Below, in pieces: positions 5,759-43,239 of a DNA stretch of 64,000 nucleotides. The first letter of the stretch is position 1. The number at the start of each line of letters is the position of its first letter. The position numbers were made by a program, and so were the translations under genes. The notes beneath the pieces were generated by a model. It saw only the letters and a list, made by a program, of their open reading frames with translations. It was not told where the DNA came from and did not search any database. Source of the stretch: Accumulibacter sp. (GTDB lineage: Bacteria > Pseudomonadota > Gammaproteobacteria > Burkholderiales > Rhodocyclaceae); contig JAISAZ010000086.1 in assembly GCA_031266435.1 (NCBI GenBank), forward strand, positions 1 through 64,000. The letters are read 5' to 3'.

Positions 5759-7219
5759 TCATACGATGTGGTAGTTTGGCGCTTCTTTGGTGATTTGTAC
5801 GTCGTGGACGTGCGATTCGCGGATGCCCGCCGACGTGATTTCGACGAATTCGGCGCGCTTACGCATCGCTTCGACCGTCGCCGCGCCGAGATAGCCCATC
5901 GAGGAACGCAGGCCGCCGGTCAGTTGGTGAATCACGTTGACGACCGAGCCTTTGTAGGGGACGCGCCCTTCGATTCCTTCGGGGACGAGTTTGTTGATAT
6001 TCGACGATACATCCTGGAAGTAGCGGTCGGCGGACCCGGCCGCCATCGCGCTGAGCGAACCCATCCCGCGGTAGGATTTGTACGACCGCCCCTGGTAAAG
6101 CTCGACGTCGCCCGGCGCTTCTTCTGTTCCGGCGAAAAGCCCGCCGAGCATGACCGAATGCGCGCCGGCGGCGATCGCCTTGCAAATGTCGCCCGAATAA
6201 CGAATGCCGCCGTCGGCGAGGACGGGGACGTCGGCGGCGTCGAGCGCTTCGGTCACCATCTGGACCGCCGTGATCTGCGGTACGCCGACGCCCGCGACGA
6301 TGCGCGTCGTGCAGATCGAACCGGGGCCGATCCCGACCTTGACGCCGTCGGCGCCGTGGTCTCGCAAGGCGCGCGCGGCGTCTGCCGTCGCAATATTGCC
6401 GCCGATGACGTCGATTTTCGGAAAGTTTTTCTTCACCCAGAGCACTCTGTCGAGAACGCCCTGCGAGTGACCGTGCGCCGTATCGACGACGATCACGTCG
6501 ACGCCTGCTTCGGCGAGGAGTTCGACCCGCTCTTCGGTGCCCGCGCCGACGCCGATCGCAGCGCCGACGTTCAGCTTTCCGAGGCTGTCCTTGCTCGCGA
6601 GGGGGTGCTCGGTCGTCTTGATGATGTCTTTGACCGTAATCAGCCCGCAGAGTTCGAAGGCGTCGTTGACGACGAGGACGCGCTCCAGGCGGTGTTTGTG
6701 AATCAGCGCCTTGCCTTCTTCGACGGTCGTCCCTTCCTTGACAGTCACGAGGCGCTCGCACGGCGTCATGATCGCGCGGACAGGCTGATCGAGATTCGTT
6801 TCAAAGCGCAGGTCGCGGTTGGTCACGATCCCGACGACGACGCGCCCTTCGAGGACGGGGAAGCCGGAAAATTTGTGCTGGCGCGTCAGTTCCAGCACTT
6901 CGCGGACGGACATCGTCGGCGGAATGCTGATCGGGTCTTTGAGCACACCGGATTCGAAGCGCTTGACTTTCGCCACTTCGGCGGCCTGCGCCTTCGGACT
7001 GAAATTCTTGTGGATGATGCCGATGCCACCTTCCTGCGCCAGAACGATGGCGAGGCGACTTTCGGTCACGGTATCCATCGCGGCGGAAACCAGGGGAATG
7101 TTGATCGAGATATTGCGCGTCAGCCGGGTTTTCAGGTCGACTTCTCGCGGTAAAACACACGAATGGGCGGGAAGCAGGAGGACATCGTCAAAGGTAAGCG
7201 CACGTTGAATCACACGCAT
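5759..7219 (-). CDS. guaB: IMP dehydrogenase with CBS domains
   Basis: [18 protein letters not shown] start; [23 protein letters not shown] active-site loop. Confidence 0.97.
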
Positions 7220-37836: not shown

Positions 37837-38119
37837 AGCGCCATCAACTTATCAAGCCCTGTCGGGCACACTTGCGATATTCTTGCCGATCTGCGCGAAG
37901 GACGGGCGACGATTGAAAGCGGAGAGTGCCGCCGAGGGAACTTGGCGGAGAGGGCGGGATTAATATATCAATATAAATCAGTAGGTTATGTCTATATATT
38001 CCATAATTACCTATTTATTTACCGTAAACAAGTAGGTTTCGCCTCGGCAATGGGGCGCGGATTAAAACAGCGAAGTGCAGTGTGAAAAAAGCCAAGGGCT
38101 TCCCAGCTTTTCCCCCGAA

Positions 38120-39539: not shown

Positions 39540-39776
39540 TCAGGATTCAGATCGGAGTTCAGGCGGCAATTGCCGACCCGCGCGCTCACTCTCGTATGAG
39601 TCCGTGCAGTGTCGGCAATCGAAAAACACGTCGTCAATGAGGTGCATCGGCCAATGCCGCTTGCCCGCGACGTGCCAGCGGTAGGCACGCGAGGAAAGCG
39701 TCTCGTCGGACCAGCCGCCGAGCACCGCGTTTATCACTTGGTCGAGTGCGATCAGGACGTTTTTGACACGTCTCAC
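39540..39776 (-). CDS. phage-conserved hypothetical protein
   Basis: MRRVKNVLIALDQVINAVLGG..DETLSSRAYRW, a type of ORF common next to phage lysis cassettes. Confidence 0.6.
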   Translation of the reverse strand: MRRVKNVLIALDQVINAVLGGWSDETLSSRAYRWHVAGKRHWPMHLIDDVFFDCRHCTDSYESERAGRQLPPELRSES

Positions 39777-40375
39777 AGCGCCGCGGCTGCTGAGAAAAGT
39801 GCGTCGAGTTGCGCGTCGGAAAGTCCCAACTCCCCGGCCAGCTTCACATACAGCGGATTGTCGCGCCGGACTTCAGTAGCAAACTCCCACTCAATCCGTG
39901 CGGAATCGCCCACGTCACCCTCTATCGCTGCGACCATCGTTGAGACTTGCTCGTACAGCCCCGCAGATTTGAGCGCAAGCCGCGCCTGACGCATCGTGAC
40001 CGAGGTCGGGGGTGGGAGGTCTTCAAACGTCCAGCCCTCTCCATCCCAAACGGTTTTTTTACCGGCGGGCGCGAGGGGCATCGGCTCGTCGGTCGTATTC
40101 GGCGGCTGAACATCGGCAAGCGGACCAATGGCCTCGACCTTGGCCTCGCGGCCGTCGGCGGTTGAATAAAAGACCGCCCCCCGGTAATCAGCCTGGATTT
40201 CCCAGGATTCGGTCACTGGGTCGAAAACCGCGACTTCGTTTTCTCCGGTTGATGGCGGTGCGGTAGTCGTCGCTTGAGCCGGAATCAGATAGCCCCCTGT
40301 TTCCATCGGCGAGGGGCGTGCATCGTTTTTCGACAAGAATTCGTGTGTTTTTGGGTGATAGTTATAAATTTCCAT
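39773..40375 (-). CDS. tail fibre assembly/chaperone-like protein
   Basis: VTMRQARLALKSAGLYEQVSTMVAAI..ARIEWEFATEVRRDNPLYVKLAGELGLSDAQLDALFSAAAAL, typically downstream of tail-fibre genes. Confidence 0.75.
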   Translation of the reverse strand: MEIYNYHPKTHEFLSKNDARPSPMETGGYLIPAQATTTAPPSTGENEVAVFDPVTESWEIQADYRGAVFYSTADGREAKVEAIGPLADVQPPNTTDEPMPLAPAGKKTVWDGEGWTFEDLPPPTSVTMRQARLALKSAGLYEQVSTMVAAIEGDVGDSARIEWEFATEVRRDNPLYVKLAGELGLSDAQLDALFSAAAAL

Positions 40376-40490: not shown

Positions 40491-41369
40491 ATGGCTTTGT
40501 CACTTGCAAAATGGTGCGCGAAATACGCGGAGATCGTCACGACACGGGGCCTGATGCCCGCGACCGCGCAAGAAAAAATCTCGCACGCGCAGGGCCTGCT
40601 CGCGGGAATCGGTGATAAGGCGCTCAAGAAAATCCGGCCTGTCCACGTCGCGCGTGCGATCCACGCTGTCTGGGCGGGTGGGCACCCCGCGAAGGCGCGG
40701 CGCATGCTCTCGGTCGCGCGCGACCTGTTTACCGAGGCGGTGATCAACGGCTATGTCAATGCCAATCCCGCCGCGCCGATCCGGCCGCTCCCGAACCGCG
40801 TCCGGCGCGCGCGGCTTTCGCTCGACCACTGGCGGCTCACGCAAGCCACCCTTGAAACCGAAGCGCTTCCGTGGCGGCGGCTGTTTGCGATTTTGGCGCT
40901 CGTCACCGGCCAGCGGCGCGGCGACCTGCTCAAAATGCGGTTTGACCACGTCTGGGACAAGCACCTGCATATCGTCCAAGAGAAAACCGGCGAGCGGATC
41001 GCACTCCCGCTCTCGCTCCGGCTTCGCGCGGTCGATACGAGTTTGCGCGAGATCATCGCACGGTGCCGCGACTACGGGCCTCCGGGAGACACGCTGATCC
41101 GAAAAAACAATACTGGCGACCCGCTCACGCGCTCATCCTTGACGAAGGCGTTCTCAGCAGCGTTCCGCCGCGCGGTCGTCTGGGAGCGGGAGGATCGAAA
41201 GCCGCCGAGCTTGCAGGAGTGCCGCTCGCTCGCCGAGCGGCTTTACAGCGCGCAAGGGATCGACACGCAAATCCTCCTCGGCCACCGCCGCGCGCAGACA
41301 ACCGCGCTCTACCACGACGACCGGGGCCTCGACCGCGAAGCGGGCGTCTGGCGAACTTTGAAAATTTAA
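40491..41369 (+). CDS. lambda-Int-like tyrosine recombinase without the arm-binding domain; candidate shufflon recombinase
   Basis: VTGQRRGDLLKMRFDHV (R), VQEKTGERIALP (K), PPSLQECRSLAERLY (box II R), LLGHRR (H), TTALYHDDRG (Y). Starts at a point that aligns with lambda Int residue ~65. Confidence 0.93.
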   Translation: MALSLAKWCAKYAEIVTTRGLMPATAQEKISHAQGLLAGIGDKALKKIRPVHVARAIHAVWAGGHPAKARRMLSVARDLFTEAVINGYVNANPAAPIRPLPNRVRRARLSLDHWRLTQATLETEALPWRRLFAILALVTGQRRGDLLKMRFDHVWDKHLHIVQEKTGERIALPLSLRLRAVDTSLREIIARCRDYGPPGDTLIRKNNTGDPLTRSSLTKAFSAAFRRAVVWEREDRKPPSLQECRSLAERLYSAQGIDTQILLGHRRAQTTALYHDDRGLDREAGVWRTLKI

Positions 41370-41370
41370 G

Positions 41371-41688
41371 CCCGATCATCGAGGGGAGTTTGAACGCCTC
41401 TGGGATAACTCGGCCGGGGTCGACGTAGGGCGGGAGATTGGGACGTTCCAGGAGGACGCGATTCGGAATATCACGGGACATATCTATGCCGGAAAACTCT
41501 ATGAATATTTGTTTAGTGTTAGTGGCGTATTTTCTACATACGCAGATGGAACAGTGGAACCGCTGGGGCATAACTCTAATAAGCAGTCGTGTTATCAAAT
41601 GCTGAGCTTCGATGCTTCGCGCGTCGTTCCAGTTGCGTCCGAGAACCGCCCGCGCAGTGTAGCAGTCCTCGCTTGCATCAAATATTAG
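41371..41688 (+). other. silent tail-fibre C-terminal cassette C1
   Basis: Frame from CCC: PDHRGEFERLWDNSAGVDVGREIGTFQEDAIRNITG...FDASRVVPVASENRPRSVAVLACIKY*; starts 1 nt after the recombinase stop. Confidence 0.93.
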
Positions 41689-42021
41689 CCCGATCATCGG
41701 GGAGAGTTTTTACGGATGTGGGATAGTGGTGCGGGCGTCGATATTGGGCGGGAAATCGGGAGTTTTCAGATTGACCAGATGCGAAAAATAACGGGGGCCG
41801 TGTCCGCGATAGGTTTTCGGGCGGATGTAGATACGAGCCATCCTGATATCGCCAATGGTATGTTTAGACGCGCGGCTTTCAGCGATTGGGGTGCGTACAA
41901 CCCACAATCTACCGGCACACACGCTACCCTTATTGCGGACTCGTCTCTTCTCGGCGCCAACTACGACGGCACGGATACCCACGGGCGCAACGTTTCCGTC
42001 CTCGCCTGCATCAAATATTAG
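41689..42021 (+). other. silent tail-fibre C-terminal cassette C2
   Basis: PDHRGEFLRMWDSGAGVDIGREIGSFQIDQMRKITG...ANYDGTDTHGRNVSVLACIKY*; begins at the nt after the C1 stop. Confidence 0.93.
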
Positions 42022-42345
42022 CCCGATCATAGAGGTGAGTTCCCAAGGTTTTGGGATAACAGTGCCGGGATCGATGTCGGGCGCGAGATCGGGACATTCC
42101 AGGGCGACGCGATGCAGAATATCGTCGGAAGCGCCTATTTTATTCGGTTTGCGCAAGACTCTGGGAGCAACGGCAGCGGAGCGTTATATCTAAGCCTTGG
42201 CGATCACGGTTATAACGGTTTGGTTCAGAATACGTCGGCTGGAAGATTATCCGGGACCCTCACCTTCGATGCCTCGCGCGTTGTACGTACCGCCCCCGAA
42301 ACCCGCTCTCGCAACGTTTCCGTGCTCGCTTGCATCAAATATTAG
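42022..42345 (+). other. silent tail-fibre C-terminal cassette C3
   Basis: PDHRGEFPRFWDNSAGIDVGREIGTFQGDAMQNIVG...FDASRVVRTAPETRSRNVSVLACIKY*. Confidence 0.93.
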
Positions 42346-42651
42346 CCCGATCATCGGGGAGAGTTTTTACGGATGTGGGATAGCGGCGCTGGCATTGATG
42401 TTGGAAGGGAAATCGGGACGTGGCAACAAGACGCGATAAGGAATATAACGGGATACCTTTATACAATTTCGTATGGGCTTAGTACGTCGGGAGCATTTTC
42501 ATCGCCTTCGGGCCCGGTACCAAAAACGGCAGGGGCCAATCTAAATACATGGGTAGAGGGCGCCGCTCTTTTCGACGCTTCCCGCGTCGTTCCAGTCGCC
42601 GCCGAGAACTGTCCCCGAAGCGTCGCCGTCCTCGCCTGTATCAAATATTAG
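42346..42651 (+). other. silent tail-fibre C-terminal cassette C4
   Basis: PDHRGEFLRMWDSGAGIDVGREIGTWQQDAIRNITGYLYTISYGLSTSGAFSSPSGPVPK...VAVLACIKY*. Confidence 0.93.
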
Positions 42652-42981
42652 CCCGATCATCGGGGAGAGTTTTTACGGATGTGGGATAGCTCTGCCGGCA
42701 TCGACGTTGGGCGGGAGATCGGGACGTTCCAGATCGACCAGATGCGGAAAATAACAGGGTACGCGCTCCCAATCGGTTTCCGTGAGGATGCAGTTACGAA
42801 TATTCCGTCTCTTGTCGGTGGTATGTTTCAACGCGTAGCGGCAGATTGGGGCGCGTACATTACGAATGGAAATGGTTCGCGTGCGTGTCTTGACGCGGAT
42901 TCGTCCCGCCTCGGCGCCAACTACGACGGCACGGATACCCACGGCAGGAACATCGCCGTCCTCGCGTGCATCAAATATTAG
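42652..42981 (+). other. silent tail-fibre C-terminal cassette C5
   Basis: PDHRGEFLRMWDSSAGIDVGREIGTFQIDQMRKITG...ANYDGTDTHGRNIAVLACIKY*. Confidence 0.93.
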
Positions 42982-43239
42982 CCCGATCAGCGTGGCGAAT
43001 TCGTACGTTCGTGGGATAACAACGCCGGCATTGACATAGGCCGCGAAATCGGCTCGTGGCAAGGGGATGAGCTAAAATCGCATTATCACTTAATTACGGC
43101 CGGCGGAATGAGCGCGCTTACGGCGGGAAGCGTAGTTTCTATGACCCCCGTTTATTCTGGGGGCACAAGCACCCAATACACCGGCGGCGTCGAGACGCGC
43201 GGCCGGAATATCGCGCTCCTCGCATGCATTAAATATTGA
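42982..43239 (+). other. silent tail-fibre C-terminal cassette C6 (shortest, most divergent)
   Basis: PDQRGEFVRSWDNNAGIDIGREIGSWQGDELKSHYHLI...GGVETRGRNIALLACIKY*. Confidence 0.9.

Follow-up and report, generated by a model that had tools for sequence, protein, structure and literature searches.

What does a tyrosine recombinase that resembles phage lambda integrase, has no arm-binding domain and lies in the tail module of a prophage do there? We asked this of a gene in a 64,000-nucleotide stretch of Accumulibacter sp. DNA (the window; positions 1-64,000 of contig JAISAZ010000086.1, forward strand, assembly GCA_031266435.1). Its sequence and surroundings make it highly likely that the gene encodes the dedicated enzyme of a prophage tail-fibre shufflon derived from lambda Int.

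An earlier note, made by eye from the DNA letters, had aligned the 292-residue protein with lambda Int from about residue 65 to the C-terminus. In a phmmer search against PDB sequences, residues 3-281 matched lambda Int 74-349 (E=9e-40), so the alignment stood through the C-terminal catalytic part, while its start belongs at lambda residue 74-75. Identity was 33% with lambda Int and 38% with phage-21-type Int. Pfam detected core-binding and catalytic domains only (PF22022 and PF00589), and a fold search with the AF2 model (mean pLDDT 90.4, pTM 0.73) placed lambda Int 75-356 at the top (TM 0.80-0.84, E about 1e-22). XerA, XerH, Cre and XerD trailed far behind (XerD, E=5e-5). In sequence, the similarity to Rci was weak (E=6e-5 over 111 aa). 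These HMM and structure comparisons, which the note had proposed, bore out its view that the arm-binding module has been lost. Upstream of 40491 the open frame extends by only about 41 codons, none of them ATG, GTG or TTG, and a tail-fibre-assembly gene on the opposite strand begins just upstream at 40375; no arm-binding domain has therefore been missed. Five of the six residues of the tyrosine-recombinase set R-K-H-R-H/W-Y are present (R142, K165, R245, H265 and Y274), as had been read by eye, and the box II His is indeed replaced by Gln (Q242) in an alignment with 48 other recombinases. Since this His is usually catalytic in tyrosine recombinases, the enzyme may work slowly or not at all.

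The surrounding prophage spans about 32.7 kb of a 75-kb contig, between 20-bp tRNA-Ser repeats at 37942 and, beyond the window, in the tRNA-Ser 3' end at contig position 70616. It combines a lambda-type terminase (gpA) with a contractile, Mu-like tail. A second tyrosine recombinase, of 393 aa, is encoded at contig positions 69231-70412, adjoining the tRNA-Ser. With this integrase and its att repeat at the opposite end, the window recombinase is not the integrase of its prophage; its gene sits between the fibre-assembly gene and the tail-fibre gene. We found no PF00239 match for a serine invertase in the genome and no diversity-generating retroelement at the locus, the only RVT_1 match of the genome being on another contig (C43).

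Eight cassettes for the 3' end of the fibre gene fill the space between the recombinase and the fibre (table 1). C1-C6 follow the recombinase stop codon directly on the plus strand, and C7 and C8 lie convergent to them on the minus strand. Seven are silent, six on one strand and one on the other, and C8 is joined to fibre residues 1-144. All eight are open, from PD(H/Q)RGEF to ACIKY-stop. They are most diverged in the middle (pN/pS 0.73, compared with 0.21 over the first 25 codons after the core and 0.44 over the last 32). C7 is a mosaic, its first 24 codons resembling C3 and the remainder being 87-100% like C4; such mosaics suggest that cassettes also exchange sequence by homologous recombination, in addition to any site-specific events. 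The assembly holds a single state of the array, with the C8 junction. In a computed search, inversions between opposite sites reached 10,080 arrangements, in which each cassette gets into the fibre, so that inversion alone suffices to bring all eight there. No close relative of the prophage was found: the array is absent from genomes of the same genus, neither a site 18-mer nor a blastn search with the cassette region matched viral contigs or phages, and the nearest fibre relatives in IMG/VR (L048-L054) lack both a cassette array and a recombinase match. Scanning the locus with Rfam and for tandem repeats and promoters returned nothing useful.

Table 1. Features of the prophage tail-fibre locus, in window positions.
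Feature	Position	Strand	Basis or remark
Prophage att repeat TTGGCGGAGAGGGCGGGATT	37942..37961	+	20-bp repeat of tRNA-Ser 3' end
Tail-fibre assembly gene	39773..40375	-	phrog_105, E=2e-25
Arm-less lambda-type tyrosine recombinase, 292 aa	40491..41369	+	lambda Int match, Pfam, AF2 model and fold search
Gln242 codon, replacing box II His	41214..41216	+	alignment with 48 other recombinases
Predicted catalytic Tyr274 codon	41310..41312	+	alignment with lambda Int
Outermost putative recombination site	41362..41378	+	recombinase 3' end AAATTTAAG, then core CCCGATCA (41371-41378)
Silent cassette C1	41371..41688	+	core 41371-41378; open frame PDHRGEF...CIKY-stop
Silent cassette C2	41689..42021	+	core 41689-41696
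Silent cassette C3	42022..42345	+	core 42022-42029
Silent cassette C4	42346..42651	+	core 42346-42353
Silent cassette C5	42652..42981	+	core 42652-42659
Silent cassette C6	42982..43239	+	core 42982-42989; 3' end abuts C7, no site between
Silent cassette C7	43245..43550	-	core 43543-43550; inverted repeat with C4; open frame, stop read from sequence
Cassette C8, currently joined to fibre gene	43551..43856	-	core 43849-43856
Tail-fibre gene, 245 aa	43551..44288	-	Pfam Collar and PHROG tail-fibre matches
Tail-fibre constant part	43857-44288		residues 1-144; variable part, residues 145-245
Mu-like baseplate genes	44285..46955	-	Pfam / PHROG matches; context
Gp48	44285-45352	-	baseplate block
Gp80-like	45360-45809	-	baseplate block
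Baseplate J	45840-46955	-	baseplate block

The longest run that is invariant over all eight cassette starts is CCCGATCA, which encodes Pro-Asp and includes two further bases. Left of it, fibre gene and cassette ends diverge immediately, and these differing flanks mean that the crossover cannot lie there. To its right, over the 25 codons mentioned above, codons vary synonymously (pS 0.66) and the protein is kept; the two core codons themselves show no synonymous change. Protein constraint on silent copies implies that they are sometimes translated, and thus that the crossover falls in or before the core. Taken together, the pattern places the probable crossover within the 8 bp, a length in keeping with the 6-8 bp overlap of tyrosine recombinases. 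AAATATTAG is the sequence at all six cassette ends that are followed by a site, and AAATTTAAG that at the recombinase end; the two convergent cassette ends, which no site follows, read AAATATTGA and AAATACTGA. The end sequence shared before sites hints at a left arm that the enzyme may bind and that the fibre-gene side does not share. We also found six exact copies of AAATATTAGCCCGATCA in the genome, all within this array, and a palindrome, CCCGATCATCGGG, at some sites only. A crossover deeper in the cassette, for instance in a second invariant run, TGGGATA (+30 to +36), seems unlikely to us. This is the sole other invariant run of seven or more, and the cassette starts of the nearest relative described below share a longer stretch, but the invariance of TGGGATA is mostly due to its single Trp codon. 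Moreover, an internal crossover would leave the first 30 bp of each silent copy permanently behind a stop codon and untranslated, whereas in fact these bases vary synonymously and conserve the encoded residues (R, G, E, F, R, W).

From these features we propose that the recombinase would cut and rejoin DNA at the 8-bp core that opens each fibre cassette. Recombination of the fibre-gene core with an oppositely oriented core would then invert, rather than delete, the intervening DNA and join another of the eight cassettes in frame to the constant fibre residues. The receptor-binding tip of the phage would change, and with it probably the host range. The prophage thus very probably flips fibre ends in and out of its fibre gene, changing which bacteria the virus attaches to. 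Recombination between the directly oriented cores of C1-C6 could remove cassettes, unless inversion is the preferred reaction of the enzyme. The enzyme itself would stem from a lambda-type integrase whose arm-binding domain became dispensable and was lost, as a simple short site does not need one.

Relatives of the recombinase were found by alignment-based scans only; single-sequence scans of genome and viral contigs gave no kin, and the 80 best matches of the first viral scan were ordinary full-length integrases with the box II His. The best relative, at 60% identity, comes from a Zoogloeaceae MAG (L141), where it lies in a Mu-like prophage that also encodes a MuA-type transposase. The layout is that of the window locus, with two cassettes: the recombinase faces the fibre gene, one inverted silent cassette lies between them, and the two cassette starts share 37 bp from the same Pro-Asp codons. 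Ala takes the box II position. Repeat-like sequence stands in for about 30 N-terminal residues of this recombinase, so that it may be decayed; REP-like repeats, at 5887-6005 and elsewhere, are scattered in this prophage and take the place of the 5' end of the gene. The next relatives (39-46% identity) are arm-less too and keep the His. In a tree of 49 recombinases, all the arm-less ones formed one clade (100/99) inside the lambda-type integrases, in which the window recombinase paired with that of L141 (100/100). Its core-binding and catalytic domains and this placement show that it belongs to the lambda-type integrase lineage.

These results bear out several expectations of the earlier note. 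Its DNA-shuffling enzyme derived from a phage integrase gains support from the eight interchangeable cassettes and from the tree, and the simple short sites that it predicted agree with an invariant 8-bp core at every junction and with a separate integrase that has its own att repeats. It had asked whether close homologues also lie beside fibre cassettes, which is the case for the nearest relative, or are all ordinary prophage integrases, which they are not: an arm-less clade exists, and the L141 enzyme adjoins an inverted fibre cassette.

The case for a shufflon draws on the domains of the protein, the cassette array with its invariant core, the separate integrase, the layout of the relative and the place in the tree. 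Two other explanations were weighed against it. We regard it as very improbable that the gene is an ordinary prophage integrase or a remnant of one, with cassettes that are unrelated fibre duplications. The enzyme does belong to the lambda-type family, and almost every other relative that turned up is an ordinary integrase, but the 393-aa integrase of the prophage adjoins the att repeat at the opposite end, and the window recombinase gene lies within the tail module, where its last base pairs are part of the first cassette site. An inverted fibre cassette again adjoins the gene in the nearest relative, whose Mu-like prophage has a transposase.

The cassettes might instead be donors for homologous recombination or gene conversion, next to a recombinase killed by the exchange of His for Gln and an array that is frozen with respect to site-specific recombination. 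Mosaic cassettes such as C7 and the non-His residue at box II would suit this account, which we nevertheless find decidedly unlikely: general homologous exchange does not predict a core that is invariant amid varying surroundings, the recombinase frame is intact with the remaining catalytic residues present, and the Rin recombinase, which has Arg at the same position, goes with inversions seen in reads (PMC6109161). A dedicated fibre-inverting enzyme remains our preferred reading.

Beyond the closest pair, many sister recombinases of the arm-less clade lie inside head or tail operons, often adjoining a large surface-type gene. The neighbour resembles a GDSL/SGNH esterase in L232, L243 and L334 and a rhamnosidase in L231; in L242 it is a cement protein whose end is esterase-like, and in L238 a fibre with a collar domain. 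Several neighbours have no known domain, and in at least one case (L333) the recombinase follows a portal gene instead. Two sister records carry a second recombinase, probably an integrating one. When compared in pairs, the contigs showed breaks at the recombinase. The 99.5% identity of L236 and L237 over 206 bp ends at a short motif ahead of the recombinase gene; L235 (4216-6253) and L334 (144-2179) carry the adjacent gene in opposite orientations with respect to the recombinase; and a portal segment is inverted between L241 (2-765) and L242 (3517-4289). These are leads only, which may reflect real rearrangement or, as these are metagenome contigs, mis-assembly.

A pyrimidine-rich motif (about AATCCCCTC..CACG) stands 16-60 bp before many sister recombinase starts, directly after the preceding stop codon (L236, at 5435 and 6122; L237, at 189; L231, L233, L234, L241-L244, L336 and L337). 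L236 and L237, nearly identical up to the end of the motif, differ from there on. The motif could serve as a site of recombination or as a signal for expression; in a scan of the window with this motif the CCCGATCA sites did not score. Exact direct repeats of 16-31 bp also occur between structural genes, with one copy just after the recombinase stop (L232 at 1073, 3274 and 8887; L242 at 3189 and 8306; L234 at 987 and 8457). We rejected att sites of a mobile element as the main reading of these repeats, since those of L232 and L242 lie on either side of portal and capsid genes, which a phage could not survive losing. With their other copies preceding the portal and capsid genes, the repeats in L232 and L242 are likelier to be phage promoters. 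Tentatively, and with some doubt, we suggest that the arm-less lambda-type recombinases form a family of their own over diverse phages, rearranging virion surface-protein genes at short sites next to the recombinase. In this picture the fibre-inverting branch, and Rin on its own, would have given up the box II His, perhaps since rare switching is better served by a reaction that is slower or tuned in another way.

Lambda Int is known in atomic detail, and a natural arm-less version of it therefore makes the role of the arm domain, and the choice of inversion over deletion, testable. The eight-member fibre array with its mapped 8-bp core offers a clear model for phage host-range switching. The loss of the His in both phage fibre-inverting lineages examined makes the need for this residue, regarded as catalytic, a concrete question.

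Among known systems, the integrases of lambda, HK022 and phage-21 type are the closest family by sequence, fold and tree; the window recombinase differs from them in its missing arm-binding domain, its box II Gln and in not being the integrase of its prophage. In the R64 shufflon, multiple inversions by Rci between short sites select one of several adhesin C-terminal ends. This is the same working principle as proposed here, but Rci has only the weak similarity given above, keeps the box II His and acts on the pilus tip of a plasmid. FimB, FimE, XerC and XerD also keep the His, so shufflon and invertase enzymes do not in general lack it. It is missing in both phage fibre lineages checked (Gln/Ala here, Arg in Rin), which are only two independent cases. 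Gin, Cin and Min of phages Mu, P1 and p15B switch tail-fibre ends by inversion (reviewed in PMC6109161), but these are serine recombinases, of which this genome has no match.

The closest parallel in layout is the Rin shufflon of Bifidobacterium prophages, whose recombinase lacks the arm domain (PMC6109161); a locus similar to the Rin shufflon occurs in Eggerthella lenta prophages (PMC8778435). We retrieved three Rin loci through their 11-bp site. In both systems a receptor-binding-protein gene is constant in its 5' part and has several alternative 3' cassettes in an array, each starting with a short core (8/8 in the window), and an arm-less tyrosine recombinase at the far end of the array has a site just past its stop codon, within about 7 bp of it in the three Rin loci. 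The window locus shares with Rin a constant fibre with silent 3' ends in both orientations, an identical short core and a dedicated recombinase apart from the integrase. The systems differ in hosts and fibre type, in the core (11 bp, TTCCCTAACCC, in Rin) and in the box II residue, the 291-aa Rin recombinase having Arg (L326 and L327), which the parts of PMC6109161 consulted do not mention. In our tree Rin groups with XerC/D, and forcing it into the arm-less lambda clade was rejected (p-AU 0.015), a result that long branches advise taking with care. A related system may have been described outside the open-access literature that was searched. The comparison with Rin suggests at least two origins of tyrosine-recombinase fibre shufflons, the present one being in the best-studied integrase family. 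Tail-fibre shufflers are known in other phages, and the one in the window, which shares its plan with Rin but belongs to another recombinase lineage, appears to have evolved separately, out of the lambda-integrase family, giving an already known layout a new enzyme lineage.
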